Source: Egibacter rhizosphaerae (GTDB lineage: Bacteria; Actinomycetota; Nitriliruptoria; Euzebyales; Egibacteraceae). From it: a stretch of DNA of 64,000 nt. Position 1 is the stretch's first letter, and each line of letters opens with the position of its first letter. A program made the translations under genes and the position numbers. Shown here in pieces: positions 10,930 to 33,355 of this stretch. The notes beneath the pieces are model-generated. The model was given only the letters and a program-made list of their open reading frames with translations. It made no database searches and had not been told where the DNA came from. The DNA is taken from positions 1,860,001 through 1,924,000 of the forward strand of contig NZ_CP036402.1 of NCBI RefSeq assembly GCF_004322855.1. Direction: 5' to 3'.

Positions 10930-11373
10930 TTGCGGGTCGTCATCGACCCCAACGTGCTGCTGTCGGCGTTGATCGCGCCTGGTGGCGCCAGCGACCAGGC
11001 GGTGCGCAGGATCGTTGTCCACGCCACGCCGATCGCCTCTCCGGAGCTGCTTGATCGTTTCGTGCAACGTGCGCGTGAGGAGCGGTTTCGGCGGTGGTTC
11101 AGCGTCGCCGGCGCTGAGGAACTGGCGGGACAGCTCGCCGAACTCGCTGAAGTCGCAGAGGATGCGGCGCACGTCCCTGCGGTCGGCGTTGCCGATCCCT
11201 CCGATGACTACTTGGTGGCCCTCGCCCGCCGCAGGCGCGCAGACCGCCTGCTTACTGGCGATCGGGGCATCCACCGCGCCCTTGACGGTGCCGACGACCT
11301 GCGCGTTGTATCGCCCTCCGATTTGCTCGGCGAGTTCCCAGCTGACGCAGACAGCCGGTCCGAAGGCGCATGA
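10930..11373 (+). CDS. PIN-domain toxin (putative toxin-antitoxin ribonuclease)
   Basis: A protein of 147 residues starting at TTG 10930. The opening RVVIDPNVLLSALIAPGGA holds the first catalytic Asp, VADPSDDYLVALARR the central acidic cluster, and LLTGDRGIHR the last Asp strand, all usual for the PilT/PIN group. The TTG lies two bases after the antitoxin stop, so translation is coupled. PIN toxins are Mg-dependent ribonucleases. This is the last chromosomal gene before the left att repeat of the island. Confidence 0.86.
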   Translation: MRVVIDPNVLLSALIAPGGASDQAVRRIVVHATPIASPELLDRFVQRAREERFRRWFSVAGAEELAGQLAELAEVAEDAAHVPAVGVADPSDDYLVALARRRRADRLLTGDRGIHRALDGADDLRVVSPSDLLGEFPADADSRSEGA

Positions 11374-12991: not shown

Positions 12992-14935
12992 CTAGCCGGG
13001 GGGGTGAGGGGCGAGGAACGGCTCGGCGCATAGCTGCGCCACCATCGGCTCCCACCACGCGCCCGCCGCGGGGTCCACGGCGGCGAGGAACCACTCCCCC
13101 ACCCGCAGCAGAAACCGCTCCTGCGCGTCGCCGCAGCAACGCTGCGGGCGGTGCGGCGCGGCCGGCGTGCCCGCGGCCGCGGGCACGAGATCGAGCACCG
13201 CGTCCATGGTGCACGCGCGCACGCCGCGCTTGCCGTGGTCGGCGTCGTTCTCGGCGTGCACCACCTCGTAGCCGCAGGCGCGGAACCCCGCAGCCGAGAG
13301 GGCGGCGAACAGCGCCGCCCACGCCCGCGGTTCGCGATTGGCGTAGCTCAACAGCAGATGCCCGCCGGGTTTGAGGACGCGGCGGCACTCCACGAACACC
13401 CACGTGAGTAGCCGCTGGTAGTCGACGTCGTCTAAGGCAGTGGCCACCGCCTCGTCAGCCAGCAGTTCGCCCGTGCCGTCCCACGCCCGAAACAGTCCGG
13501 ACAGCTCGCCGTAGTGCACATCGTCGTGGTAGGGCGGGTCGGTCCAGATCACGTCGGCGCTGTGGGCGGGCAGCAGCATCCGGTGCGACGAGCCGCGGGT
13601 CACCCGCACATCCACGCGCGCGGGCATGCGACCGCGGCGCTGCTGCGCGGACCGGGGCCCGTCGACGGTGAGCTCGCCGGCGTGGGCGCGCAGCCACTCC
13701 GCGCTGCGGGCCAGCGCGTCCACGCGGCGGCGCACCGTGCCGCGTCCGACCGGCCCCACGCCCCACACGTGCGGTTCACACGCCAGCGTGGTGAGGCTGA
13801 ACCGGTGCGAGGACACCGCCTCGTAGGCCTTGAGGTAGCGACGCTCCCACCGCGACAGGTAACCGGCCATCTCGGTCGACCCGAGGACAGCCAGCCGCAG
13901 GGCGGCGCGCACCTCCTCGGCCGCGGACAGCTCCTCGACCGCGCGTAGCACCCCCTCGAGGACTACTTGCTGGCGCGGCGGGTAGCAGTCCTGCCACCGG
14001 CGGTAGCCGAAGCTGTGCAGCGCTCGGGTCTCCACGCCCACAGGGATCGCGCCGAGGTCGCGGTCAGGCGCCCACCCCTCGGTGGCCTGGGCGATCTCGG
14101 CCGCGGTGGGAGGGCTGAGGTCGCGGCGGCTCTCGGCGACGCGTTCGACGAGCACAGGGTCCCACTCGAGGCCGTTCGCCGCGACATCTCTCAACGGTGC
14201 GGCCGCGCCGCAGGGGCAGCGAAACACGCGGGCCGCGGTGTAGCGGTCCTCGGGCGAGACCCGAAGCCGACATACGGGGCAGGTCGAGGGCGCGCTCGCG
14301 CGGCCGGCGAACAGGTGCCCGTAGGCACAGGCCAGCCACGCGTCGTCGCCGCTGGCGAGGGTGTCGACGCGCTGGCGGCGGCTCACCAGCGCGTAGGGGT
14401 ACAGCCGCCAGCGCGCGTCGCACTCCGGGCAGCGGCCCGCCGCGACCCGGATCGTGTGCGCCACCGCAGCGGGCTCACCGGTCGTGGAGCGGGTGGCATA
14501 GGCGCGCTCTAGCAGCGAGCGGCAGGACTCGTGCAGCGCGTCGGCGGCCTCGAGCAGCGCCTCCCGCGGCGGCAGGGACAGCATCGTCGCCAGTCCCGCC
14601 GCCGCCCACGGGTTGATGTCCTGGGCGTACACGCGGTGGCCGCGCACGGTGGCCGACAGCGCAACCGTGCCGCCGCCGGCAAACGGGTCGACGACTAGCA
14701 GCCGCGGATCGGGCGCATCTGCGGCGACGGCATCGAGTACCCCGCCGGTGACTGCCTCGGTGCGGCGCGCCCACCACCGGTAGGTCGACACCGGCGGCAC
14801 GTGCCGCTCGCGCGCGCGGCTCTCGCGCCGCGCGGCTGCGGACACCGCAGAGGTGTCGAGGTGGCGCAGTGGGCTGACCACCCCCGGCGGCGCGGCAGGT
14901 CGCCCCCCCGGGGTTTCCTGGGGGTCTGAGGTCAC
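12992..14935 (-). CDS. DPPY-type DNA methyltransferase with zinc ribbons (DISARM-associated)
   Basis: A protein of 647 residues. The SAM-binding motif I is DPFAGGGTVALSA (about residue 85) and the catalytic motif IV is WTDPPYHDDVHY (about 463), the order used by N6-adenine and N4-cytosine amino-methylases. Between them lie cysteine pairs (CPECDARW, CPVCRLR, CPCG) that look like zinc ribbons, as in the COG1743/DUF1156 methylases. The N-terminal STYRWWARR also fits that group. The start GTG at 14935 is chosen; an ATG at 14992 is possible. Within the operon it would supply the self-marking methylation of DISARM. It is not a C5-cytosine enzyme: the PCQ motif of that class was not seen. Confidence 0.85.
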   Translation of the reverse strand: MTSDPQETPGGRPAAPPGVVSPLRHLDTSAVSAAARRESRARERHVPPVSTYRWWARRTEAVTGGVLDAVAADAPDPRLLVVDPFAGGGTVALSATVRGHRVYAQDINPWAAAGLATMLSLPPREALLEAADALHESCRSLLERAYATRSTTGEPAAVAHTIRVAAGRCPECDARWRLYPYALVSRRQRVDTLASGDDAWLACAYGHLFAGRASAPSTCPVCRLRVSPEDRYTAARVFRCPCGAAAPLRDVAANGLEWDPVLVERVAESRRDLSPPTAAEIAQATEGWAPDRDLGAIPVGVETRALHSFGYRRWQDCYPPRQQVVLEGVLRAVEELSAAEEVRAALRLAVLGSTEMAGYLSRWERRYLKAYEAVSSHRFSLTTLACEPHVWGVGPVGRGTVRRRVDALARSAEWLRAHAGELTVDGPRSAQQRRGRMPARVDVRVTRGSSHRMLLPAHSADVIWTDPPYHDDVHYGELSGLFRAWDGTGELLADEAVATALDDVDYQRLLTWVFVECRRVLKPGGHLLLSYANREPRAWAALFAALSAAGFRACGYEVVHAENDADHGKRGVRACTMDAVLDLVPAAAGTPAAPHRPQRCCGDAQERFLLRVGEWFLAAVDPAAGAWWEPMVAQLCAEPFLAPHPPG

Positions 14936-15016
14936 TGCCACACCACCCACTCGTGCACCTCCAGTGCGTCTTGCGTGCGCTTTAGCGCGCATGCTGGCCA
15001 GTGGACGCGCGGCAAC

Positions 15017-15833
15017 CTACCGCCCGGCAGGGGGATCAGGTGGGCAAGCGCCCGCCTCCGCGGGGTCGGCGACGAACAGGCCTGCCTCGGTGAGCGAGCC
15101 CAGCAGCCCGCGCAGTTGCTCGCACTGGCGGGCGCCCAGGCCGCACCGATCTCGACGTGCTGCTCCGGTCCCTGCGAGCTGAGGTTGGCGGTGCCCAGGT
15201 AGCCCTCGCGGCAGTCGGCGACGAACTTGGCGTGCATCAGCGACCGCGCAGGCCCCTGGTACCACCAGGTGCGCACCTGCGGGGGTGCGCCGACCGCACC
15301 GATCAGCGCACCCAGCCGGTCACGCGCCGCGGCGTCGGGCCAAGCGTGCACGTAGAAGGCGCAGGCCACGCCGCGTTCGGTGATCGCGGGGGCCAGCACG
15401 TTGAGCAGCCGCTGGATGCCCGGGTCGTTCCAGAACGGGCCGCCGAGCAGCACCTCGCTGGTGGCCATGCGGATCACCCGCTCAACAAAGAGGTCGAGCC
15501 GCTCGCGCGGTTCGATGAGCCCCTGCGCGGGCTCGGGCACGGTGAACACCAGTGAGGGGTCGCGGCCCGGCGGCGGCGGGGCGCGGGGGGTGCAGCGCGC
15601 AGCACCTCGCACACCGTGGTCAGCAGCGCCGTGCGCGCCAGGGTGCCGCGGTCGTGCGCGTCGACCAGGCCGAGCTCACGAGCCTGCCTCCGCAGTGCCA
15701 CGCGCACGTCGCCGTGGGCAACGTTGAGCGCGGCGGCGCCCTGCTCGCCCATCCGGTACGCCAGCGCGGCGGCCCCGCCGTAGCCGCCCGTGACATCGGC
15801 CAGTTGCCCGGCAAACGTGACCAGATCGTCCAT
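15017..15833 (-). pseudogene. drmC: DrmC-like phospholipase-D protein, two frameshifts
   Basis: Three successive frames make one PLD-fold protein. ATG at 15833 starts MDDLVTFAGQLADVTGGYGG and runs to CEVLRAAPP. Near the G6 run at 15585-15590 it passes to the frame of SLVFTVPEPAQG and the catalytic HxK stretch SLMHAKFVADCREGYLG with GTANLSSQ. Near 15136-15145 it passes to CEQLRGLLGSLTEAGLF and a stop at 15017. One missing C at each point would restore a single frame of about 270 residues. DrmC is dispensable or modulating in studied DISARM systems. The gene may be truly broken or these may be sequencing errors in GC runs. It follows drmB by 17 bases. Confidence 0.8.
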
Positions 15834-15850
15834 TCGCGCCGCCGCTCCCC

Positions 15851-17653
15851 CTAGGTGCGCCAGAAGTCCATCGCGAGTTCGCGCGAGAGATCGCTGTTGA
15901 ACCGTCGGCAGCCGAACGTGAGGTACAAGCAGCGCTCGCACGCACGCGGGCGGCGGTGGTGGCACAGCGGGTCGTTGTCGCAGCGCCAGCTCGCATCGAA
16001 CGCGCGTTCCATCCACTCGAGGCTGCGGCTGTGCAGCAGCGTCCACAGCGCCCCCAGGGTGTGAGACTGGAAGCTGGACACATAGATGCTGATCGTCAGC
16101 GTCTCGGGCACCAGCCACTCGGCCAGCGACGCCTCCCCGAACCCGGTGCGCCCATCGTCGAGAGCGCGCAGGAGCACATGCGAGAGCGTGTGCACGAGCA
16201 CGCGGGTGTCCTGCGGCCCCTCGGGGGCGGTCTCCTCGACGGCGAACATCTCCAGCACCGCGGCGCGGGCGTCGCGCTCGTCGGAGGGCACCGGGGCGGG
16301 GTAGCTGCCGCGGCGCCGCAGCCAGGCCAGCACGTCGACGGCCGACAACGCCACCAGCGCCGCCTCGGTGTCGGTAGTGACCGCGAAGATCGGGTCCTTG
16401 TTGTCGTACTCGCCACGGCGCGCGAACCCACGCAGCGTCGAGGTGTTGGGGCGCTTGGAGGTGCGCGTGTAGCCGTAGGCGGCCACGGCGATGGGGAACT
16501 GGTCGGTCACCGCAAGTTCGTCCACGCCCAGCTCGCCGGCGCGTTCGCGGGCGCGCAGGAGCGCGCGCTCCTGCGCGGTGCGCCCGGTCCGCTGCGCCTC
16601 GTCGTGCGCGTCCTCGAGCCGGTAGCGGGCGACCTGCTGAGGGTCGTACAGGGTCGCGCGTTCCAGCATGCGCCGCTCGGCGGCGAGGCCGCAGGCCGCG
16701 GCGCTGAGGTCGCTGGTTGCCGCCACCCCCTCGGTGGCGGGTCCGCGGCGGCGGCGGATTGCCTCGATCTCGTCGTCGTCGAGTTGGCTGTACTTGGTGC
16801 GTATCGCCTCCTCCCACTCCTCTTGGCTCATGCGCTCGCCGGACTCCCCGCCCGCGAGCTCGTTCAGCGCAATCCCCACGCGGGCCTCGTCGCCGAGGTA
16901 GGAGGCGGCGGCGATGCGCCCGCGGGCGTGGTGGCGCTGCAGCTGCTCGTAGGCGTTGGTCTTCAAGTTCAGCAACGACACGGTCTGCGGGTAGAAGCTG
17001 CGGGGGTCTCGGACGGTGTACTGGCGCATGAACGCTTGGCTGCTGGTCTGCTGGGGGGAGAGGTACTGACCGCAGTCGCACGGCGACATGCGCGTGCCCT
17101 TGATGTAGGCGTTGCCGCAGGTTCGGCACCGCCAAGCCGCGGTCTCGAACGAGCCGGTGTCCTCGAGGAAGACGTTCTCGTCGCTGCCGCACCCGCGGCA
17201 GGTCGGCACGAACATTGGCTGGATCCGCCCGCACGCGTGCGCGCTGTAGTAGCGCAGCTGGCGCAGCCGCGAGCGGCAGTGCTCACAGCGCACCCGCTGG
17301 TCGCCTTCGCGGGCCTCGAGGACCTGCTCGTCGCGGTAGAAGCGGCGGACGCGCTGGCAGTGGCGGTTGGCGCATTGGAACACCAGCGGCCACACCTCCC
17401 ACTGCACGAGCACGGGTTCGATGACCACGAAGGCCTCGTCGCTGGTGTCCCGCGGCACCCGGATGCCGGCGCGCTTGTCCTCGTCCCACCGGCGCAGCTC
17501 GTGCTCGACCTCGGCGAGCAGCGCGTTCTTGTTGATGGTGGGGCCCAGCGGGTTGCCGCGCACCACCGAGGTGCGCACGACCAGCTCGTCGTCGTGCAGG
17601 TACACCGCGCCGGGCAGGTAGCGGTACAGCGTCTGCGAGCGGCTGCGTTGCAT
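15851..17653 (-). CDS. drmB: DrmB, DUF1998 protein of DISARM
   Basis: A protein of 600 residues. The DUF1998 C-terminal region is recognisable: LVHTLSHVLLRAL, then EWLVPETLTISIYVSS and a closing cysteine cluster CHHRRPRACERCLYLTFGC. The N-terminal half has several zinc-binding pairs (CEHCRSR, CRGCGS, CRTCGNAY, CDCG). In DISARM, DrmB forms a complex with the DrmA helicase and is needed for phage DNA recognition. The ATG at 17653 overlaps the drmA stop by one base (TGATG), so the two are translationally coupled. Confidence 0.9.
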   Translation of the reverse strand: MQRSRSQTLYRYLPGAVYLHDDELVVRTSVVRGNPLGPTINKNALLAEVEHELRRWDEDKRAGIRVPRDTSDEAFVVIEPVLVQWEVWPLVFQCANRHCQRVRRFYRDEQVLEAREGDQRVRCEHCRSRLRQLRYYSAHACGRIQPMFVPTCRGCGSDENVFLEDTGSFETAAWRCRTCGNAYIKGTRMSPCDCGQYLSPQQTSSQAFMRQYTVRDPRSFYPQTVSLLNLKTNAYEQLQRHHARGRIAAASYLGDEARVGIALNELAGGESGERMSQEEWEEAIRTKYSQLDDDEIEAIRRRRGPATEGVAATSDLSAAACGLAAERRMLERATLYDPQQVARYRLEDAHDEAQRTGRTAQERALLRARERAGELGVDELAVTDQFPIAVAAYGYTRTSKRPNTSTLRGFARRGEYDNKDPIFAVTTDTEAALVALSAVDVLAWLRRRGSYPAPVPSDERDARAAVLEMFAVEETAPEGPQDTRVLVHTLSHVLLRALDDGRTGFGEASLAEWLVPETLTISIYVSSFQSHTLGALWTLLHSRSLEWMERAFDASWRCDNDPLCHHRRPRACERCLYLTFGCRRFNSDLSRELAMDFWRT

Positions 17654-20600
17654 CACGTCCCTCTCTGGCCGAGCAGCGCCTCGTAGATCTGGCCGGCTCG
17701 CGGCCACGGGTCGAAGCCCACGGCCTCGTCGACGTCGCGGAGGTTCTCCATCACCCGTTCAAGGAACAGTTCCTTGGTGTTGTCCTGCTCGTAGGTGACC
17801 ATCTGGTTGCGTTCGTAGTGGTCCCAGCGGTCAAGCGCGCGTTCGACGAGCTGGTCCTCGAGGGTGCGGTCGACCGCAGTGGCCACGACCGCGCGGTAGG
17901 CCCGCTCGAGCCGGTCGCGCAACACCGGCTCGAGGATCGCCGCCCGCGGTTCCCACCACGGCCGGAAGTTGCGCACGCGCCGGATGCCGCCCTCCGGCGG
18001 GTCGTTGGCGGGATCGCGGGTCATGTCCCAAAGCAGCGCCATGGCCAGGCCCGGTAGCGTGCGGTCGACCGCGTTGCGGGCGTACTTGTTTACCGGGACC
18101 GGCTCGACGGTGTGGTCGAGGAACCGGTGCGCGGTGTCGAAGTGCGCGAACGACGACGCCTCGCGGCGCGCGAAGTGGTCGAACACGGTAACGACCGCGC
18201 CGACGTGGGAGCGGCCGGCGCGGCTGGTCGCCTGGATGTAGTCGGCGATCGTGGTCGGCAGCCCGGTCATCACCATCAAGTTCAAGCGGCTGATGTCCAC
18301 CCCGTGCGAGACCACCGAAGTGCCGACCAGGGCGCGCAGCCGCTGCCCGCGCGCGGTCGATGGGTCGGCGTCCTCGACCTGGTCGATCGCCGCGGCGAGC
18401 TGGCCGATGGGCACGTCGCCGGTGAGCTGGTCGAACAACAACGGCTCACGGTGGCGTTCCTCCAGCGTTCGGCTGAGCTCGCGTAGGTCGTCGGCGATGC
18501 TCGCGCCGTGGCCGCGGTTGTTCACATACCCCAGTGACACCTCGTACTGGAACAGCAGCTCGAGGGCCTCGTTGGCGGTCGGTGTCTGCCCGCAGCGCCG
18601 CTCGATGATGTGTTGTGCGGCGGGCAGGTCGTCTTGCAGCTCGGCGATGACGCGCACGAACGTGGACTGCACCTTGCCGGCGACCTCGACCTTGGTGGTG
18701 CCCCCGCCAGTGGGCATGAGCCCGAGGAACACGCGGCGCACGTCAGGGGTCTCGGCGGTGTAGAAGCTCTTGGCCGCCTCGAAGCCGGGGGAGGGGAACC
18801 GTCGCGGGTGTCGCCCGTACACCTGCCGAAGCTGGTCCTCGTACTGCTCGATGGTGGCGGTCGCGGCCAACATCTTGCTCGGCAGCTGCGACGGTCCGCT
18901 GCGCTGCAACTCGGCGAGCAGCCCGTCGTAGTGGGCCGCGAACGTGCCAAGCTCCTCGCGGACCAGGTGCAGCTCGTCCTGGATCACCAGGGCGGGCACC
19001 GGGTCGGGCCACGCGTCTACCTGCGCCATCTCCTGGGTGGCGCGCTCGCAGCGGTTGCCGGCCAGGCACCGGTAGGTGAAGTAGCCGTGGTCGGGGCAGC
19101 GCTTGGCGGGGCCCCAGTTCAGGGAGGTGAACTCGCCGAAGTGCGAGAAGCCGGTGATCTTGTCGGTGGTGGAGACCAGCACGGTGGGCTGGTAGCGGTA
19201 CACCTCGTCGTCGCTCATGTGGATCGGCAGGTCGGTATCACATACCTTGCAGCGGTGCAGGATACGCACGCGCGGGGGGTCGGGTTCCAGCCGCACGCCG
19301 TCGTGGTCGCCGCAGTGCGGGCAGGCCGCGACCAGCCGCCGGTGCAGCTTGTCCTCTTCGGTCAGTTCGTCCGCGCGGTCGATGCCAGGCCACCAGCGGC
19401 TCTCGTACTGCAGCTGGTTGGGCGTGTTCGTCGAACCCACGAGGTAGCCGAGCTCGAAGGGGGCGCCGAGCCCGTCGAGCTGCTCTTCGCGCACCCGGTC
19501 GGCGGCGACCAGCACGTCGAGCACGCGGGCGAGCTGCTGCACCGACAGCATCCGCAGCGGGAACCGCAGCCACGCGGTCACGCCGGCGTGTTTGCCGCGG
19601 AGCCGGTCGTAGAACGCCGCGGCGAGGACGAGCCCGAGGTAGGCCTCGGTCTTGCCGCCGCCGGTGGGGAACCACAGCACGTCGGCGCTGTCGAGCTCGG
19701 CGCGGAGCTGTGGGTCATTGCGGTGGCAGCGCGCGGCGAGGCCGGGCAGCTGGGAGACGATGTACACGAGCTGGAACAGCCGCCACGAGTGCACCTGCGG
19801 GTCGGCGGCGTTGGCGTGATCGAACGCCTGGTTGGCCAGCGTGAACGCGGTGCGCAGCTCGGAGTCGGTGCGCAGCAGCTGGCGGCCGAGCGCGAAGCGC
19901 TCGAGTTCCGCGGCGAAGCCGGCGCGCTCGGCTTCGGCGTCGTCGCGGGTGCGGGTATCGGCGAAAGTGGCCTCGGCGAGGAAGCGGTCCCACGCGGCGA
20001 GGTAGTCGCGCATCGCGTCTTCGACGCCCCCGAGCACCGGCTGCGGGTCGGTGGCGAGCGCGGCCCAGCGCAGCCCTGGGACATGGTCGGTGCGCGGCCG
20101 CACGATGCGTTGCACGTGGCGGGGCAGTGTCTCCGACCGCAGCTCCTGCTCATCGCCGGCCGCCACGCAGTTGCGGCCGTGGCCGATGACGTCGCGCTGC
20201 TCCGCGTAGCGGTAGTCCTCGGAGGCCAGGCTGAACCGTTGGCGCACGACGCGGGCACCTGCGCGTGGGCGCACCGCGACGCGGCAGTCGTACAGCGCGA
20301 GGTCCTGGAACGCGCCGAGGTCGACCTGGGTGCGGTTGACTAGCGACACCGACACGATGGCGCGTCCGTCGGGCAGCGGTTCGGCGAACGCCACGACCTC
20401 GGGCCGGGGGGCGTCGGGCGTCCACTGGGGATCGGTGCGCTCGCGCGCCGCCTCGGTCCACGCCGCGTCGCCATCGAGCGAGCGCACTGCCACGGTGCGT
20501 GCGCTGGTGAACGGGCGAGCGGCGTCGGCGCGGCGGTAGTGCGCCTCGACCGCGTCCCGGGCCGCGGCGGCCACGGCGTCGCGTTCGACGGTGTGGGAGC

Positions 20601-21210
20601 CGTCGACGGTGAGGGTCAGGGGCAGGTCGAGGGCTTCGACGTCGGTGCGCAGCCACGCGTGGGGCACGGGCACGCGCGTGGGCCTGCGGCCCCCGTCTTC
20701 GTCGCCTTCGTCGCTCGCGCCGTCGGTGGCGTCGTGTTGGGCGGCCTGCTCGCGCACGTGTCGGGCCATCTCCTCGCGGGCGGGCAGCAGCGGTTGGTAC
20801 AGCGCGAACCGCACGTCCACCGCCAGCGTGAGCTTGGGGGCGGTGTGGGTGGGCTGGTCGGGTTGCGCCGCGAAGTCGAGGCCTAGCGCCAGCGGCTCGT
20901 GGTTGACGTCGAGCCGCTCGTCATCCTCCTCGTCGTCGCTGGCGTCGCCACGCGGCTGACCGTCGCGTTCCTCGCGCGGGGGCCGCACCTGGGGGCGCAG
21001 CACCCCGACGCGGACCTGCTGCTTGGGATCCCACGGGGGTGCGTGCCGCCCGCCCGCGCGGTCGGTGAGCTCGGTGGCCACGACCCCGAGGACGTGGTCG
21101 ACCAGCGCGCCTTCGGCGGCGTTCTCGGGTCGCTGTCCGGGGTGCGGCGCGCCGCCGGTGGCGGTGGCCGCGGGACCGAAGTCGGGGTGGACGCTGTCGG
21201 CGTGGTGCAC
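17653..21210 (-). CDS. drmA: DrmA, DISARM helicase
   Basis: A superfamily 2 helicase of 1185 residues. Walker A is WFPTGGGKTEAYLG (about residue 515), the DE box is VIQDELHLVREELG (about 742, with DELH instead of DEAD), the later motif III-type LAATATIEQY follows, and the C-terminal lobe has SVVSHGVDISRLNLM and QATSRAGRSHVG. A zinc ribbon (CPHCGDHDG, CKVCD) is inserted between lobes. This arrangement is that of DrmA, which with DrmB loads on unmethylated phage DNA. The start GTG at 21210 is preceded by AGAGGAG at 7 bases; the frame remains open further upstream. It is intact and the largest gene of the island. Confidence 0.92.
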   Translation of the reverse strand: MHHADSVHPDFGPAATATGGAPHPGQRPENAAEGALVDHVLGVVATELTDRAGGRHAPPWDPKQQVRVGVLRPQVRPPREERDGQPRGDASDDEEDDERLDVNHEPLALGLDFAAQPDQPTHTAPKLTLAVDVRFALYQPLLPAREEMARHVREQAAQHDATDGASDEGDEDGGRRPTRVPVPHAWLRTDVEALDLPLTLTVDGSHTVERDAVAAAARDAVEAHYRRADAARPFTSARTVAVRSLDGDAAWTEAARERTDPQWTPDAPRPEVVAFAEPLPDGRAIVSVSLVNRTQVDLGAFQDLALYDCRVAVRPRAGARVVRQRFSLASEDYRYAEQRDVIGHGRNCVAAGDEQELRSETLPRHVQRIVRPRTDHVPGLRWAALATDPQPVLGGVEDAMRDYLAAWDRFLAEATFADTRTRDDAEAERAGFAAELERFALGRQLLRTDSELRTAFTLANQAFDHANAADPQVHSWRLFQLVYIVSQLPGLAARCHRNDPQLRAELDSADVLWFPTGGGKTEAYLGLVLAAAFYDRLRGKHAGVTAWLRFPLRMLSVQQLARVLDVLVAADRVREEQLDGLGAPFELGYLVGSTNTPNQLQYESRWWPGIDRADELTEEDKLHRRLVAACPHCGDHDGVRLEPDPPRVRILHRCKVCDTDLPIHMSDDEVYRYQPTVLVSTTDKITGFSHFGEFTSLNWGPAKRCPDHGYFTYRCLAGNRCERATQEMAQVDAWPDPVPALVIQDELHLVREELGTFAAHYDGLLAELQRSGPSQLPSKMLAATATIEQYEDQLRQVYGRHPRRFPSPGFEAAKSFYTAETPDVRRVFLGLMPTGGGTTKVEVAGKVQSTFVRVIAELQDDLPAAQHIIERRCGQTPTANEALELLFQYEVSLGYVNNRGHGASIADDLRELSRTLEERHREPLLFDQLTGDVPIGQLAAAIDQVEDADPSTARGQRLRALVGTSVVSHGVDISRLNLMVMTGLPTTIADYIQATSRAGRSHVGAVVTVFDHFARREASSFAHFDTAHRFLDHTVEPVPVNKYARNAVDRTLPGLAMALLWDMTRDPANDPPEGGIRRVRNFRPWWEPRAAILEPVLRDRLERAYRAVVATAVDRTLEDQLVERALDRWDHYERNQMVTYEQDNTKELFLERVMENLRDVDEAVGFDPWPRAGQIYEALLGQRGT

Positions 21211-21329
21211 GAACCGCTCCTCTGCCGTCTGGGGTGATGACGTTGCTGTCGGTGCGGTGGGCGCTAGGTCGGTGCGGTGGGGTCGTCGTCGCGGTGAATG
21301 CTGACTGCCACCGGGCTCAAGGGCCGGGG

Positions 21330-23809
21330 TCAGGTGCCAGGTGGGTGCACGCCCCCGAGGGCGTGGGCGGGGATCTCCTCGCGTGGTTCGATGCGGCGGA
21401 CGGTGGCGACCTCGAACTCGTCGAGGACGTCCGAGGGGTCGCCGCCGAGCTCGGCGGCCAGCGCCCGCAGGTTGGGGCCCGCCCCGTCGGCGGCCTCGCG
21501 CATGGCGCCGGAGATCACCCGGCCGATGCGCTGGTGCAGGCCGCGGAGCTCGCGGGCGACCTCGGCGACGCGGCGCCAGTGCCGCTGCAGCCACTCGTCG
21601 CCGGCGAGACGGGCGATGCAGGCGATGTCCTCGGGGTGTTGTGGCGCGATGGTGCGGCCATGGGCCCACGCGTCGAGCTGGGTGCGCACCTGGCAGCCGG
21701 CGTGGCGCAACCGCGCTTCGATGGTGGGCTGGTGCTGGTCGCAGTCGGCGACGACCGCGCGGCAGGCGCGCCGCCAGCGTTCAATGACGACTTTGAGGTC
21801 CTGCACGTCGTGGTCGCGGTGCTTTTCCTCGACCAGGCGGGTGAACAGGTCCTCGCGGCCCGTGCCGCGAGCGACGATGACCTGATCGCCGGGTGCCAGA
21901 TCCTCGACGTGCCATCGCCGGTAGCTCATGGCCGCGACCCGCTCGATGGCGGAGTCCTGCGGCACCAGCCACACCTGCCCCGACGGTTCGAGCTCGACGG
22001 CGTAGCCGGGCACCGGCGCGTGCGACGCGCCGCCCCCGGGCCGCGGCGCGTCGCGGTCGCCGGGATCGTCGGCGACGCGCTCGAGCGCGGCGAGGTCGGC
22101 GGTGAGCCCTGCGAGGTCGACGTCGAGGTCGACCGGGGTGACCGCGGGCTCGGGGCCGGGGGGGATCCCGTCGAACCGCCGCGGCGTGGCGGCGGCGGCG
22201 CGCGGCGCGGCGTCGGCGTCCAGGCCCTGCAGCGGGAACGAGCGCCGCAGCGCCGCGCTGGCGCGGTCGGCCTCCGCGTCGAGGAGGCCGGGCAGCGCCT
22301 CGACCTCCCACGGGTAGGCAAGCACGATGCGTCGGTTGGCCTCGCCCGACCACAGCGCCTCGCGGCGCGACCGCGGCGGCAGCGCGGGGAGGATCTCGGT
22401 GGTGTCGCGCTCGGACCACGGCAGGCGCGCGGTCCACGGCACGATTTGCAGGCGCTGGTCGCCCAGCGCCAACTCGTGCTCGCCGTACTCGAGGAGGTCG
22501 TCGACCACCGCGGCCGCGGCGGCCTCGCTGGCCACCCGCACCACGAGGCGGTGCTCGGGGTAGCGCCGCGCGCTCACTTCGAGGGCGCTGAGCAGTGCGA
22601 GGAACTTGGGGTTGTCCGCGGTGAGGCCGTCGACGAGGTCGAGGATGAGCGCGCGCAGCCCCTCCCAGCGCGTTGCGGCGTACCGGTGCCACATCCCGCC
22701 GAGGTCGCTGCTGCGGGTGCGGGCGACGTCGGCGCGCAGGCTGTTGAGGGTGCGGGCGCGGTGGTCAAGCGCCGCGGAGCGGTTGAACGCCTCGGCGGTG
22801 CTGGCCAGCTGCACCAGCGTGTTCAGTGTGCGGCGCGCGGCCTGCAGCGGGTAGGGCAGCTCCTCGGCGACGCGGTGGGCGTCGGTGAGCAGCGTGATCG
22901 CCTGCCGCATGCTGCGGTCGAACGCGGGCGCGTGCACGTCACTGTAGGCCACCTCGCCGGGGTCGCGGTCGAGCAGCGCGCTGGTGGTCAGCGGCGAGCG
23001 GGTCCGCTCGCGCCCGCCCGAGCGCCACAGGGCGGCGACGAGTTCGTCGATCACCGGCCAGTGCGACACGACCGCGCAGCGCTCGTCGACCACGCGGGCG
23101 GTCTCGCGGTCGCCGAGGTCGCTGACCACGACCAGCCGGCGCGCCTCGTGCGCCTCTGCCCAGTCAAGCGCCCGCGCGCGCAGGTCGGGGTTGCGGAAGG
23201 TGGTGCGATCGATGACCACCAGCCCGTCGCGCTCGCCCGGCAGGGGGGATAGCCCACGCGCGTGTTGAGGTACAGCATCCGCTGGCGGCCCACGCGGTAG
23301 GGCACGATCGCCCCCGAGGGGTCGACCAGCTGTCCGTCGCTGCGGACCCGGTGCACCGCGAGCCCCTCGGCGAGGCCGACGTTGTGTAGGCTCACGCGGC
23401 GCAGACGGCGCTGCAGCGCGCTGTCCATCCCGATGACCGTGACCGACCCGTGAAACGGGGGCTCGCGGCGCGCGCCGTCGAGCGTGGACCGCAACCGCGC
23501 GAGTTGGGCGAAGATCCCCAGCATGGCGGCGACCTCGTGCGCGCCGCGGGGCAGCTGCACGTGCAGCGCTGCCGTCGCGCCGTGGCGCACCCGCAGTCGC
23601 GCCAGCCAGCAGGTGAGCGCGGCGAGTACCTGGTCCAACGCGCCGAGCCAGACATCCGCGCCGTCGTCGCGCAGACGCAGCTCGCGCAGCGCCGCGACCG
23701 TGTAGTCGGGCGGCCCCTCGTAGCCCAGCAGCTCGTCGACCCAGTCGTCGTCGCGATCGGGGTGCAGCGGAGGGCCGCTGTTCGGTGGCGCTGTCGTTGC
23801 TGGGTCCAT
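21330..23809 (-). pseudogene. drmE: DrmE-like protein of class 2 DISARM, one frameshift
   Basis: An about 826-residue protein encoded in two frames. The ATG at 23809 (MDPATTAPPNSG, after GGGCGGGAGC) begins the first part, which ends at RQRMLYLNTRVGYP. A run of six C on the coding strand (plus 23243-23248) then shifts reading to LPGERDGLVVIDRTTFRNP and on to the stop at 21330. One extra C repairs the frame. Size, position before drmA and lack of familiar catalytic motifs match DrmE, the component unique to class 2 DISARM. I cannot point to a diagnostic motif, so the name rests on context and size. The C-terminal part contains GDQVIVARGTGREDLFTRL, a beta-strand/helix unit. Confidence 0.62.
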
Positions 23810-24085: not shown

Positions 24086-24823
24086 CTATCCCCAGCCCCT
24101 TCGGGCGAGGACGACGCCGCGCACTCTCTCGGCGCCGTGGCGGCGCAGCACTCGCGCGAGCGCGTCGAGGGTGTGCCCGGAGGTGCAGACGTCGTCGTAG
24201 ACGAGGACGAGGCGGCGGATTCGGCTGGGGTCTGGCACGACGGTGGCGGCGGCGAGGTCGTCGGCGGCGGCGCGTTTCTCGGGCAGAGTCCCGCGAGCGG
24301 ACGTCCGCGTAGCACGGGTCAGGGTGAGGACGGGTTGGGGGCTGTCGTCGAGCGGCCAATAGCCGAGCATGTCCGACTCGGCCGCCTGTCGTACGACCTC
24401 CTCGGTGTGGCCGAAGCTGCGGCCTCCTGACCCGGTCCAGGTGGGCGCCGCTACTACGAGACCGACGTCCCAGGGCGCGTAGTGGCGGTCGAGGTAGCCG
24501 AGCAGTAGCCGCGCGAAGATGAGCTTCCACCCCCACTGCCGCTGGTACTTGTATCGCTCGATGGCGCGCTTGAGTCCCCCCGAGTGCATCGCGATCGCGT
24601 CGATCGCCTCGATGCTCCGAGCGGGGTCGTTGCAGAGGCTGTTGATGCACGGGTCATCCGACGACTCGCGTGCCTGGCTGCAGACCGGACAAGCGTAGGC
24701 CGAGACCGCCTCCATGCTCTGATGTGCACAGCCGTAACAGGTCTCCACCGGGCCGGTGAGCTGGTAGGCGCACTCCGCGCAGTCGGGGAAGCCGGCCGGT
24801 TCCGGAGGTGGCTCCCAGGTCAC
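24086..24823 (-). CDS. ComF-like phosphoribosyltransferase with zinc ribbon
   Basis: A protein of 245 residues. The N-terminal 60 residues have CAECAYQLTG, CYGCAHQ and CPVCSQ, a zinc ribbon. The C-terminal part carries the PRTase loop RLVLVYDDVCTSGHTLDAL (PRPP site, DD at about 205) of type I phosphoribosyltransferases. In competent bacteria ComF helps DNA uptake together with DprA. Here it sits 21 bases after dprA inside a defence island, so the pair is more likely a DNA-handling defence module than a competence operon; no other competence gene is present. The start is GTG at 24823. A gap of 276 bases separates it from drmE. Confidence 0.83.
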   Translation of the reverse strand: MTWEPPPEPAGFPDCAECAYQLTGPVETCYGCAHQSMEAVSAYACPVCSQARESSDDPCINSLCNDPARSIEAIDAIAMHSGGLKRAIERYKYQRQWGWKLIFARLLLGYLDRHYAPWDVGLVVAAPTWTGSGGRSFGHTEEVVRQAAESDMLGYWPLDDSPQPVLTLTRATRTSARGTLPEKRAAADDLAAATVVPDPSRIRRLVLVYDDVCTSGHTLDALARVLRRHGAERVRGVVLARRGWG

Positions 24824-24844
24824 GCGAGACCTCGTGCGGCCCGG

Positions 24845-25801
24845 TCAGAGGACGTCAAGTGCGAGCTGGCGGGCGCGCTGCCCCGCCCTGGCGATCTGCG
24901 CTGGGCTGGCGAGCTCCCGAAGGACGTCATCGACGTCGGCTACCTCGACGGCGCCGCGCTCGTGGACGTACTTGTGCGCCCACGTCTGTCCGGTGACGAG
25001 GCTGCGCAGTAGCCACACGCGCTTGCCGTGCTCGAGCGCGAGTCTGGCCTGCATTTTCGCGCCGCTGGTCTGGCTTGCCTCGACCACGACCGTTCCTTGG
25101 GTGATGCCTGACATGGTGCGGTTGCGGCGCGGGAAGGTGTGCCGCGCCGGCGGCATCGAGGGCCAGAACTGCGAGACCAGCGCGCCGCGCTTCTCGTCGA
25201 GGATGCGGTCGGCGAGCTCGGCGTGGTGGGCGGGGTAAATGCGGGTGATGCCGGTTCCCATCACGGCGATGGTGCGGCCGTCGGCATCCATCGCGGCGAG
25301 GTGCGCTGCCCCGTCGATGCCCTGGGCGAGCCCGGAGGCGACGGTGACGCCACGAGCTGCGAGCTTGTGGGAGATCTGAGCAGCGCGGCGCAGTCCGAGG
25401 TCACTTGGCTGGCGGGTGCCGACGACCGCGACGGACACGAGGTCGTCCTCGGTGAGGTGTCCTCGGATGAACAGGAACGGCGGCAGATCGTGGACGAGCC
25501 GAAGGGTGGCGGGGTAGTCCTCGTCGAGGACCGTGACCAGGGAGGCGCCTGCCTCTTCCGCGAGCTGCAGCTCCTGCTGCACGCGCTCGCTGGCGCGGTC
25601 CCAATCGTCATGCAGGACAGCACGCAGTAGTTCGCGGGTGCTGTCGGCCGCCGTCGACCGCTCGTGTACCTGCCCCTCGCCCAACAGGTCGGGCCCGTCG
25701 CCGCGGAGGGCCTCGCGGGCCACCACGTTCCAGTCCGGACCTGAGCCATCGTGGCGGAGTGCGCACACGGTGAGCAGGCGGTGCTGCGCGTCAGTGACCA
25801 T
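24845..25801 (-). CDS. DprA/Smf family protein
   Basis: A protein of 318 residues. The Rossmann-like DprA core is clear: LVSVAVVGTRQPSDLG (about 121), VASGLAQGIDGAAH (about 155), IAVMGTGITRIYPAHH, FPRRNRTMSGITQGTVVVEA and the closing SGAKMQARLALEHG. DprA binds single-stranded DNA and loads RecA. It lacks the C-terminal winged-helix domain of many chromosomal DprA proteins. An N-terminal helical extension of 100 residues precedes the core. The start ATG at 25801 has GAGGAG upstream. It is first in the row of minus-strand genes leading into the DISARM-like set. Stand-alone DprA-like proteins are frequent in mobile defence contexts. Confidence 0.87.
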   Translation of the reverse strand: MVTDAQHRLLTVCALRHDGSGPDWNVVAREALRGDGPDLLGEGQVHERSTAADSTRELLRAVLHDDWDRASERVQQELQLAEEAGASLVTVLDEDYPATLRLVHDLPPFLFIRGHLTEDDLVSVAVVGTRQPSDLGLRRAAQISHKLAARGVTVASGLAQGIDGAAHLAAMDADGRTIAVMGTGITRIYPAHHAELADRILDEKRGALVSQFWPSMPPARHTFPRRNRTMSGITQGTVVVEASQTSGAKMQARLALEHGKRVWLLRSLVTGQTWAHKYVHERGAVEVADVDDVLRELASPAQIARAGQRARQLALDVL

Positions 25802-26099
25802 CCCTACTCCTCGCGATCCTTGTTCGGGATGCCGTCGGGGGAGCATGCCACATTGGTGCGTCAGCGCCACGCGCCCCGCAGCTGCAGGGTCGGTCCTCGT
25901 ACGCGGAGGTCGTCGCGGACGGTGGCCTCGGCGACGCGGAGTTCGGCGGGAGAGGCTGAGCCCGTCGGCGCAGCGCGGGCGGGCGCACCCGGTCGGTCTG
26001 CCGTGCTGGGCTGGGCCGCAGCGTCGGCGCTGCGAGAGTTTCGTACGAGCGGGCAGTGAGGGCGCTGGCGCGAAGCCGGCTGGGGACCCGAGGAGCGGC

Positions 26100-26463: not shown

Positions 26464-26840
26464 ATGACCAACCGAGGCGCACACTACCGGCCCGTGACCG
26501 CCAGAACCCGCGAACGGTTCGCCGCGGCGTTCATCGCCGCGCTCGATGCCATCGAAGCCCCCGAGGCGCCGCTGCTCGTGCTCGCTGCCGAGCCGCCTTG
26601 CGCGGGCGGGCTCGAGTTGGCCCGAGTGACCGGCGCCGACTCACCCGGGGAGCTCGTGCAGGTCGACCAGCCGACCGCCGACAGCCACCGTCTGCTCGGC
26701 GCCGCCAGCCGCGTGGCCTGGTCACCCACCTCTCGCGGGCGGAGCAGCCCCGCCTGGCTGGCACTCGGGGCCGCCCGCGATCTCCCAGTGTGGGCCGCGG
26801 GTGCGGCGCGACAACGAGCGCGTCTGGGCGCTGCACCTTC
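26464..26840 (+). pseudogene. Unknown protein gene truncated by an IS3-like element
   Basis: From ATG 26464 the frame encodes MTNRGAHYRPVTARTRERF, a helix AAAFIAALDAIEAPEAPLL and a beta-rich segment ending near RQRARLGAAP. It then runs into the end of the IS3-like element, and the last residues are IS-derived. The remainder of the gene was not found beyond the IS. I do not recognise the family. No Shine-Dalgarno is visible. Confidence 0.4.
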
Positions 26841-26861
26841 CGGATCGGCTTCCCTGATTCG

Positions 26862-27717
26862 TGGCCGAGGACGGTTTCGTACTCGATGGGGGTGAGCTTG
26901 CCGAGGCCTCGTTGGCGTCGACGGCGGTGGTAGGTGCGTTCGATCCACAGGGCGATGGCCACCGCGAGGTCTTCGCGGGTGGCCCAGCGCCTGCGGTCGA
27001 GGACGCCTGCGTTGCAGCAGCGCGAAGAAGCTCTCCATGGCGGCGTTGTCGCCGGCTGATGCGACGCGGCCCATCGACCCGGACAGGCCGTGGGCGCGCA
27101 GGGTGCGCTGATACCGGGGGGAGCGGAACTCCCCGCCACGGTCGCTGTGTACGACCACGGTGGCCCCGGGACGGCGCGCGAGAGCGGTGCGCAGCGCGGC
27201 ATCGGCGAGATCGCTGGTCATGCGCGCGCCGGTGGCCCAGCCCACGATCCGTCGCGAGCAAGTGTCCTTGACCGCGCAGATGTACAGCTTGCCTTCGGCG
27301 GTGGGGTGCTCGCTGATGTCGGTGAACCACACGCGATCGATCCCGTCGACCGCGAAGCGTCGGCTGACCAGGTCGTCGTGCACCGGCGGGCCGGGCGCCT
27401 GGCCGCCCCTGCCACGCCGACGCCGCTGGGTGACCGGGGCGATCCCGTGCTGGCCACACAGCCGCTGCACGCGGTTCTCCGAGGCCGCCCAGCCGGCCGC
27501 GGCGAGCTCGTCGGCGATGAACCGGTAGCCGAACTCGGGATCGTCGGCGTGGATGTCGATGATCGCGTTGACCAGGTGCGCGTCGCACCGAGTCGCGCTG
27601 GGTCACCGGGCAGGCGGCCCACTGGTAGTAGGCCTGGGGTGTGAACCCCAGCACCCCGCAGGTCACCACCACAGGGAACCCCTCGGCGGCGAGGTCGCGG
27701 ACCAGCGGGTGCATCAT
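26862..27717 (-). pseudogene. IS3-family OrfB transposase, frameshifted
   Basis: An integrase-core (rve) transposase in at least three frames. It begins MHPLVRDLAAEGFPV at 27714-27717. A single extra base near 27596 moves reading to AHLVNAIIDIHADDPEFG and on to WFTDISEHPTAEGKLY (first D) and VVHSDRGGEFRS (second D). A further shift after AAMESFFALLQ (the E of DDE lies in MESFF) leads to RRRWATREDLAVAIALW and YETVLGHE. The gene cannot make an active transposase as encoded. The ATG overlaps the OrfA stop, as is usual in IS3 elements. Confidence 0.82.
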
Positions 27718-27986
27718 TTTGGGAGCGTGTCCTTGGCGAAGTACGCCGCCGCGCGGCGCAGGATCTCGTTCTCCTGCTCCAACTGGCGGTTGCGTCGCTT
27801 CAGCGCCGCAAGCTCGGCCTGGGTATCGCTGGACACACCATCGACGACGCCATCGTCGATGTCGGCGTCCAGGCCCGGCGGCGCGCCGCCGGGCAGACCC
27901 CGCACATGCGCCCGCACCCGCGCCAGCGCGTCCTCGATTCGGGTGATCGCCGCTCGCCATCGGCGATCGCCTCGATGGTGCGCCAC
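27714..27986 (-). CDS. IS3-family OrfA-like protein, C-terminal coiled coil
   Basis: The last third is the IS3 OrfA leucine zipper: ELAALKRRNRQLEQENEILR and AAAYFAKDTLPK. The first 55 residues (RITRIEDALARVRAHVRG and a glycine/proline linker) do not resemble the usual OrfA helix-turn-helix, so the DNA-binding part seems replaced or lost. The stop at 27714-27716 overlaps the OrfB start. Probably non-functional. Confidence 0.55.
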   Translation of the reverse strand: MAHHRGDRRWRAAITRIEDALARVRAHVRGLPGGAPPGLDADIDDGVVDGVSSDTQAELAALKRRNRQLEQENEILRRAAAYFAKDTLPK

Positions 27987-31603: not shown

Positions 31604-32996
31604 GGACTGTCAGATGCACGGTGTATCGGGGCTGGCCACGTGGTCACTCTCCTGCGGGTAGCAGGCGGCCCTCGAACGTGATCTGGAACGCGTTGAGGGC
31701 GGGCTTCCAGCGGTTCATCCACCTCCTTCTACCGCGGCCGGTGGGGTCGAGGCTGCGCACCGCCAGGTACAGGCACTTCAGCGCGGCCTGCTCGTTGGGG
31801 AAGTGACCGCGCGCCCTGGTCGCTCGGCGCATGCGCGCGTGCAGTGATTCGATCGCGTTGGTGGAGTAGATCACCCGGCGGATCTCGGGGCTGTAGTCGA
31901 GGAAGGGCACGAACTCGGTCCAGCTGTTCTCCCACAGCTTGGTGACCGCGGGGTACTGCTCGCCCCAGAGCTCGTTGAAGTCGGCGAGGCGCTCCTTGGC
32001 GGCGTGCTCGCTGGGCGCGGTGTACACCGGCCGCAGGTCGCGGGCCATGGCGTCCCAGTCGCGGCGTGAGGCCAGCCGGAAGGTGTGGCCGATGCAGGTG
32101 GGAGCACACAGGTCTGGATCACCGCCAGCGGCCACGTCGCCTCGATCGACTCCGGTAGCCCCTTGAGGCCGTCGCAGACGACGATGCACACGTCCTCGGT
32201 GCCGCGGTTCTCGGGTCTCGGTCAGGACCTGCAGCCAGAACTTGGCGCCTTCGCCGCCCTGGCCGATCCAGATGCCTGTGGATGTCTCTGGTGCCGTCGG
32301 CGGTCACGCCGATGGCGGTGTCCGCGGGCCGGTTGGTGACCTGCCCGTCGCGGACCTCGGGCCACGACGCGCGCGACGAACACTGCGGCGTAGACGCGCT
32401 CGAGCGGCCGGCTTGAGCCAGTCGCCCATTTCCTCTCTGGATGCGGTCGGTGATCTTCGACACCGTCTCGCGCGACACCTCGGCGCCGTACACCTCCGCC
32501 AGGTGCGCGGACACCTCCCCGGTGGTCAACCCCTTCGCGGTCAGCGACAGCACCATCTCATCGACGCCTGACAGGCGCCGCTGGCGCCTTTTGACCAGCT
32601 TGGGCTCGAACGAACCCTCCCGATCCCTGGGCACCTCAAGCGGCACGGGGCCGATCTCGGTCAGCACGGTCTTGGCGCGTGTGCCGTTGCGCGAGTTGCC
32701 GCCGTCGCGGCCTTCGGCGGCGTGCTTGTCGTAGCCCAGATGCTCGGAGAGCTCGGCTTCGAGCCCGGTCTCGAACACCTGCTTGGTCAGCCCCGTCAGC
32801 ACCCCGGCGGGGCCGACCAGGTCGAGGCCTTCCTCGCGCGCCTGTTCGACGAGGCGTTCGGCGACCTCGCGGTCGTCGTCCGAGCGTTGCCGCTCGGCGT
32901 TGTCTCCAGTCGTGTCGGTCATCAGCTGTCCCTTCTGGCCGAGCGGATAGCTCAGCCTGTCAGGCCAGCCCCGTTACACCGATCAACTGACACCCC
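31604..32996. mobile_element. Decayed IS256-family element
   Basis: About 1.4 kb with related ends: the left end near 31604-31636 and the right end near 32961-32996 both contain TGTCAG, then CGGTGTA and CGGGGCTGGCC when read inward, with scattered mismatches. The transposase gene between them is frameshifted several times. No exact 8-bp target duplication could be seen, which fits an old insertion. Confidence 0.75.
31644..32922 (-). pseudogene. IS256-family transposase, several frameshifts
   Basis: The N-terminal part (ATG 32922) is typical: GLTKQVFETGLEAELSEHLG, GNSRNGTRAKTVLTEIGPV and VPRDREGSFEPKLV. The catalytic centre is scattered over other frames. The C-terminal part reads IGHTFRLASRRDWDAMARDL, AAKERLADFNELWGEQYP and VIYSTNAIESLHARMRRAT, where TNAIES carries the catalytic glutamate. 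At least two shifts lie between 32100 and 32450. It is not functional. Confidence 0.85.
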
Positions 32997-33205
32997 CGGA
33001 CCTTTCGTCGGGGTTCGCGTGCTGGGGTCTCGCGACGCGAGCCCGGCGCGTTCGGCCACGTGTGCGCTGGCGTCCGGGCGCTTGTGGGCGCGGGGTTTGT
33101 CGCTGGTGGCGGCACGTGCTGGCCGGCAGCCCGCGGGGCTGGTTGCCGCAGCGGGGCTAGCGCGCACGGGTCGGGGGCGTGATGTGCCCATCGCCCGCGG
33201 CGGGG
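32997..33205. other. Intergenic stretch upstream of the recombinase operon
   Basis: No supported gene. It carries the promoter region of the recombinase genes together with the repeats described next. Confidence 0.4.
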
Positions 33206-33316
33206 GTGGGTGCAAGCGCGACCCGAGCCTTCCCGCAGGTGCAAGCACCCAGCCAAGGGAAGGGGGGTTTCCTCGCCTGCAGCTTGCACCTTCGCGGGGG
33301 TGGCGCTTGCACCCAC
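33206..33316. promoter_or_regulatory. Four GGTGCAAGC-type sites in nested inverted pairs before the recombinase operon
   Basis: GTGGGTGCAAGCGC at 33206-33219 has a perfect inverted copy at 33303-33316. Inside, AGGTGCAAGC at 33237-33246 has its inverted copy at 33282-33291. The pairs are nested symmetrically and end 40 bases before the GTG start of the fused recombinase. Such paired arms are what a tyrosine recombinase or a dimeric repressor would bind, so this is either a recombination site or an autoregulatory operator. No further copies were seen at the far end of the operon. Confidence 0.6.
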
Positions 33317-33355
33317 GCGCTCGCGCGCGGGCCCAAGCCCCAGGAGGTCCCCGCC

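Follow-up and report, generated by a model that had tools for sequence, protein, structure and literature searches.

A DrmE-bearing DISARM-like operon of Egibacter rhizosphaerae with a zinc-ribbon amino-methyltransferase as its probable methylase

Can a DISARM (defence island system associated with restriction-modification) operon of the class 2 type carry an amino-methylase, as class 1 does, without being a mixture of the two classes? This question is raised by a locus of Egibacter rhizosphaerae (Actinomycetota), whose genome is a single contig of 4.64 Mb. The window, to whose positions all coordinates below refer unless a genome position is given, is a stretch of 64,000 nt of this contig (NZ_CP036402.1). 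Five genes, drmE, drmA, drmB, drmC and MT (methyltransferase), run along its minus strand from 23809 to 12992 with short intergenic gaps or overlaps throughout. A first-pass annotation had read this gene order from the sequence and called the operon a hybrid of class 2 and class 1. Profile matches bore out the order. One half of the hybrid idea also stood, namely a chassis of the class 2 lineage in which an amino-methylase replaces the C5-cytosine enzyme; the other half, an admixture of class 1, did not, as the methylase is not DrmMI and the trees point elsewhere. Judged by its sequence, the operon is probably an anti-phage system of the DISARM type from a DrmE-bearing, class 2-like lineage, in which a zinc-ribbon amino-methyltransferase of the HmaB/PglXI/DUF1156 kind fills the methylase slot.

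Gene content and the methylase

The product of the first gene, drmE (21330-23809, ATG at 23809), had been taken for a DrmE, and its membership of that family was confirmed by a match to Pfam DrmE_C above the cut-off (2.9e-18) and by a profile-profile comparison (hhalign) of the window DrmE group with haloarchaeal DrmE (E = 1.9e-9 over 381 columns). A structure prediction for DrmE from five sequences reached a predicted local distance difference test (pLDDT) value of 47.7 and was therefore not taken into the fold search. drmA (17653-21210, likely GTG start at 21210) is intact and encodes a superfamily 2 helicase of the YprA type with the core motifs TGGGKT, DELH, AATAT and QATSRAGR preserved; it matched the PADLOC model at 1.3e-112 and NCBIfam DrmAS at 2.1e-102 (344 bits, below the equivalog cut-off of 950). 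The likewise intact drmB (15851-17653), whose ATG at 17653 overlaps the drmA stop, encodes the DUF1998-type partner of DrmA (PADLOC 3.6e-25; NCBIfam DrmB_fam 4e-13, 49 bits against a cut-off of 240). drmC (15017-15833) encodes a nuclease of the phospholipase D type with a HAK motif, and its PADLOC (3.9e-7) and NCBIfam (1.7e-8) matches fall on one fragment.

The last gene, MT (12992-14992), is intact and starts at ATG 14992 or GTG 14935. Its product of 666 aa, which we take to be COG1743-like, had been credited with DPFAGGGT and DPPY motifs and zinc ribbons, and all of these proved conserved when 13 homologues were aligned. DPFAGGGT (residues 102-109) and TDPPY (484-488) were mostly invariant, and cysteines 188, 191, 222, 238, 241, 259 and 261 were invariant, with 188/191 and 238/241 forming the pairs. 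The S-adenosylmethionine (SAM) motif is thus followed by two zinc-ribbon-like CxxC sets and then by TDPPY. The catalytic core is split by a long insert holding the zinc cysteines; on the structural model this insert is plausibly the target-recognition region. Pfam N6_N4_Mtase matched at 3.3e-6 (27.7 bits, over the cut-off of 26.7), and an AlphaFold model (pLDDT 77.6) aligned over residues 47-607 with class-I amino-methyltransferases (VIA-align). A search of the model against the PDB with Foldseek gave no match at E < 0.001. With a SAM motif and DPPY in a predicted class-I fold, the enzyme is an amino-methyltransferase of the N6-adenine/N4-cytosine type. The DPPY motif favours N6 of adenine, which is the most likely methylated base, with N4-methylcytosine possible.

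To which kind of amino-methyltransferase does it belong? Its PADLOC matches (the best 25 of 27 listed) comprise PglXI, HmaB, mad2, type II methylases and DUF1156_MTase; these 25 include no DrmMI and no DrmMII. The match to NCBIfam NF042963 (DUF1156 anti-phage) is local, with 51 bits against a cut-off of 1000, and the Pfam DUF1156 domain gave no match in the methylase. As controls, DrmMI models scored 1144-1668 bits on the methylases of two class 1 DISARM loci (L059 and L060), proteins of 1387-1484 aa that are related to type IIG enzymes and about twice as long as the window methylase; in Halorhabdus the DrmMII model matched the C5 enzyme at 4.5e-45 and the DrmE model matched DrmE at 6.1e-142. 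By these profiles the window methylase represents a third type, neither DrmMI nor DrmMII, with a distant relationship to the HmaB/PglXI/DUF1156 enzymes.

The genes that define the known classes were sought in the operon and beyond. Neither drmD, the absence of which the first-pass annotation had stated, nor any SNF2 gene was found in the operon, and the three SNF2 matches of the genome all lie at least 0.75 Mb away. Profile searches detected no C5-methylase in the operon or elsewhere in the window. PADLOC requires DrmMII for type II and DrmD together with DrmMI for type I (PMC9252829); the operon is therefore neither. The sole C5-methylase (PF00145) of the genome, at genome position 1736744, is 124 kb from the operon and best matches general (MTase_II) and Druantia-type (DruM) cytosine methylase models. 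It was rejected as a partner of the operon on its distance and profile, although it could act in trans.

Relatives and ancestry of the operon

When 84,980 genomes were scanned with the methylase, 13 loci were recovered, four with drm genes and nine with a different gene set. The former are those of Actinophytocola oryzae (L006; drmE-A-B-MT), Nocardia mikamii (L015; drmE-A-B-C-MT, intact), a Thiosymbion symbiont (L013; drmE-A-B-MT) and an actinobacterial metagenome-assembled genome (L014; drmA-B-C-MT, on a contig that begins inside drmA). Further searches added an intact drmE-A-B-C-MT operon (L020) and loci on plasmids of Rubrobacter tropicus (L018; MT-drmE-A-B-C) and Streptomyces cellulosae (L019), the latter with a far more diverged amino-methylase transcribed divergently to drmE-A-B-C. 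An amino-methylase of this broad kind thus adjoins drm genes in seven other loci from Actinomycetota and Pseudomonadota, mostly with tight spacing, and because the operon order recurs in unrelated genomes it is not a product of chance. In a sample of about 1,190 genomes from three groups of taxa only a handful carried DrmE_C, too few for methylase-type frequencies, and no relatives were found in the viral contigs scanned with methylase and DrmE alignments.

The DrmA tree united all eight carriers in a single clade (100/99), which fell on the DrmE-bearing side and apart from class 1 (100/100). The DrmB tree agreed on the class 1 split, with weaker support for a single carrier clade (73/51). Neither tree indicates a class 1 ancestry for the window operon. 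In the methylase tree the enzymes of the SNF2 cassette, described below, formed one clade (100/100) with the DISARM-borne enzymes outside. This topology suggests that the methylase passed once from one context to the other, in a direction that depends on where the tree is rooted; the root is not fixed, and long branches, above all that of L019, are unsure.

The nine loci mostly consist of the methylase, two genes of no known family, an SNF2 helicase and a NOV_C protein. They contain no drm genes, and DrmE_C had no match in their genomes. This five-gene cassette recurs in Actinomycetota (L010, 4099-12013; also L007, L008, L009, L011, L012, L016 and L017), and its methylase is 46-49% identical to that of the window. 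Neither of the two genes has a family match, the second appearing ParB-like by eye, and the NOV_C protein matches PADLOC PDC-S36 (1.6e-16). In Catellatospora (L016, 12116-14371) a CHAT-domain protein adjoins the methylase. The cassette is a candidate for an undescribed defence system.

These data bear on two other ways of accounting for the methylase. A true hybrid, in which a class 2 operon had acquired DrmMI from class 1 DISARM, would fit the shared amino-methyltransferase chemistry of the two enzymes and the lack of a C5 enzyme in the operon, but it is largely refuted, and we regard it as extremely improbable: the control DrmMI proteins are about twice as long and match their own models strongly, the listed matches of the window methylase lead to other families, and neither DrmA nor DrmB groups with class 1. 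Scarcely more credible is that an unrelated orphan or restriction-modification methylase ended up by accident downstream of a DISARM operon whose own C5 methylase was lost. The gene evidently moves between contexts, since related methylases serve a cassette without drm genes; against such an accident stand the similar arrangements in the seven other loci and the position of the DISARM-borne methylases outside the SNF2-cassette clade. Whether the lineage amounts to a third DISARM class, with a zinc-ribbon N6-adenine or N4-cytosine self-mark and a methylase exchanged with the cassette of SNF2, NOV_C and two further genes, seems to us evenly balanced.

Among other plasmid DISARM-like loci, three carry a C5 methylase (L025, L027 and L030). 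The methylase thus varies freely among plasmid loci of this type, which makes any single combination less surprising. A plasmid of Sphingomonas parapaucimobilis (L034, 3432-14880) encodes an N6_Mtase of the Alw26I/Eco57I type, followed by a 916-aa gene of no named function in the drmE position and by drmA-drmB-drmC. On a plasmid of Haloplanus rubicundus (L026, 6221-13549) drmE-drmA-drmB were found with neither a methylase nor drmC annotated nearby.

Frame breaks and genomic setting

The first-pass annotation had treated drmE as one open frame. It is in fact read in two, 23809-23246 and 23243-21330, joined at a six-base homopolymer (about 23243-23252); the switch is visible directly in the sequence and is supported by a two-frame tblastn match to the DrmE of A. 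oryzae and N. mikamii. drmC occupies three frames; the first switch falls at about 15551-15599, a segment that holds a six-base run, and the second at 15141-15147, as judged from homology, sequence and a frame plot; it has a two-frame match to the DrmC of N. mikamii. Intact copies of both genes are present in relatives, drmC being intact in L015, L018, L019 and L020. A frame-break detector that tolerates short non-coding gaps found two breaks in the 11.9-kb locus; its rate over 348 kb of this genome was 0.26 per 10 kb of coding DNA. Six-base runs occur at two of the three breaks of the locus compared with one of nine elsewhere in the genome. For this genome such breaks are thus out of the ordinary, but they lie partly at error-prone sites. 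The defence may be inactive while its methylase is preserved; alternatively, the breaks may stem from errors in the assembly.

It is quite possible, if rather short of an even prospect, that this copy is a decaying relic, in which the restriction side (drmE and drmC) has been frameshifted in a region rich in insertion sequences (IS), only the methylase and helicase pair has been retained and no working defence is left. Three homology-supported breaks within about 11 kb, their excess over the genome-wide rate and the broken IS3 and IS256-type transposases nearby would agree with decay. Two of the three breaks, however, fall in six-base runs, the usual site of indel errors in long reads, and drmA, drmB and MT are intact across about 2,400 codons. 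Decay of the Egibacter copy would in any case be compatible with an amino-methylating DISARM in the lineage as a whole.

The broken state of drmE and drmC in E. rhizosphaerae is one of several points that count against our assignment. PADLOC DrmE models gave no match on the window DrmE, and the window DrmE and DrmB score below the curated NCBIfam cut-offs. No drmC was recognised in A. oryzae or the Thiosymbion symbiont. In structure the methylase is most like tRNA N2-methylguanosine methyltransferases, with Z about 16 for enzymes such as Trm14 and Trm11 of archaea; the DNA N6-adenine methylase M.BseCI is also among the fold matches (Z 13.6; VIA-align). Such matches settle the class of the fold and not the substrate, so that DNA as the substrate rests on the genomic context.

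Directly upstream of drmE, on the same strand, lies a ShosTA-like pair (24086-25870). It consists of a ComF/ShosT-like phosphoribosyltransferase (24086-24823, minus strand; PADLOC ShosT 1.7e-7, Pfam Pribosyltran 5.8e-7) and a DprA/ShosA-like protein (24845-25870, minus strand; PADLOC ShosA 3e-68, TIGR00732 203 bits, above the cut-off). In those relatives that were inspected first, the surroundings of drmE held no DprA-like gene, and the pair is a neighbour outside the conserved operon. Another DprA is encoded at genome position 1071757. An IS3-type transposase remnant (26484-27960) and one of the IS256/Mutator type (31644-32922), both frame-broken, lie between the defence genes and an open reading frame with a Pfam Phage_integrase match (33179-35854). 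Downstream of the operon, on the plus strand, a PIN_3-domain protein (10930-11373; Pfam 9.6e-11) is possibly the toxin of a toxin-antitoxin pair.

Proposed mechanism and comparison with known systems

If the operon is, or was, functional, it most likely marks self by amino-methylation. The methylase would use its central zinc-ribbon insert to bind a motif in DNA and would mark the host DNA by methylating an exocyclic amino group, of which N6 of adenine is the likeliest. DrmA with DrmB would load onto incoming unmarked DNA that is single-stranded or has a 5'-overhang, and the nuclease DrmC would help to degrade it; DrmE may be an accessory helper whose role is unexplained. Methylation sensing by DrmAB and the block to phage are carried over from the DISARM literature, in which the ATPase and structural work on DrmAB used 5-methylcytosine (m5C) (PMC9142583).

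DISARM classes are sorted by their methylase and a helper gene, and a conserved DrmE lineage with neither DrmMI nor DrmMII shows that this scheme is incomplete. Current detectors can miss the lineage, given the silence of the PADLOC DrmE models on the window protein. It also offers a test of self/non-self discrimination by DrmAB, which would need to recognise a mark other than m5C, or none. Should the lineage prove to be a third class, the chemistry of the DISARM self-mark would be a swappable module and DrmAB would be tunable to different methyl marks. In the literature searched, which did not cover the variant lists of Ofir et al. 2018, we found no description of a DISARM with such a methylase, and no paper in which DISARM and DUF1156 appear together. 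A survey of YprA proteins left many DISARM-like classes uncharacterized (PMC12458937).

How does the operon compare with systems already described? ARMADA (PMC12458937) likewise combines a YprA-type helicase with an amino-methylase, but it has a BrxHII-like helicase and a YprA-DUF1998 fusion, whereas the window operon has no BrxHII-like protein, a separate drmB and a DrmE. The HmaB/PglXI/DUF1156 methyltransferases are the closest matches of the methylase among those listed, and occur elsewhere in SNF2 helicase cassettes; archaeal operons, for instance, combine a COG1743 methylase with a DUF499 protein and an SNF2 nuclease (PMC7641849). The matches are local only, however, and the window methylase is linked to DrmE-A-B-C instead. 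With class 1 DISARM (DrmD, DrmMI, DrmA, DrmB and DrmC) the operon shares DrmA, DrmB, DrmC and a methylase of the amino type, but it lacks DrmD, its methylase is unrelated to DrmMI by profile and half as long, and its DrmA lies outside the class 1 clade. The greatest likeness is to class 2 (DrmE, DrmA, DrmB, DrmC and DrmMII), seen in canonical form as drmE-A-B-C-C5 on pHTIA of Halorhabdus tiamatea (L027). There a C5-cytosine enzyme takes the place of the zinc-ribbon amino-methyltransferase, and the window DrmE and DrmB are divergent; yet the order drmE-A-B-C with the methylase last is the same, and the window DrmA and DrmB fall on the DrmE-bearing side of the tree.

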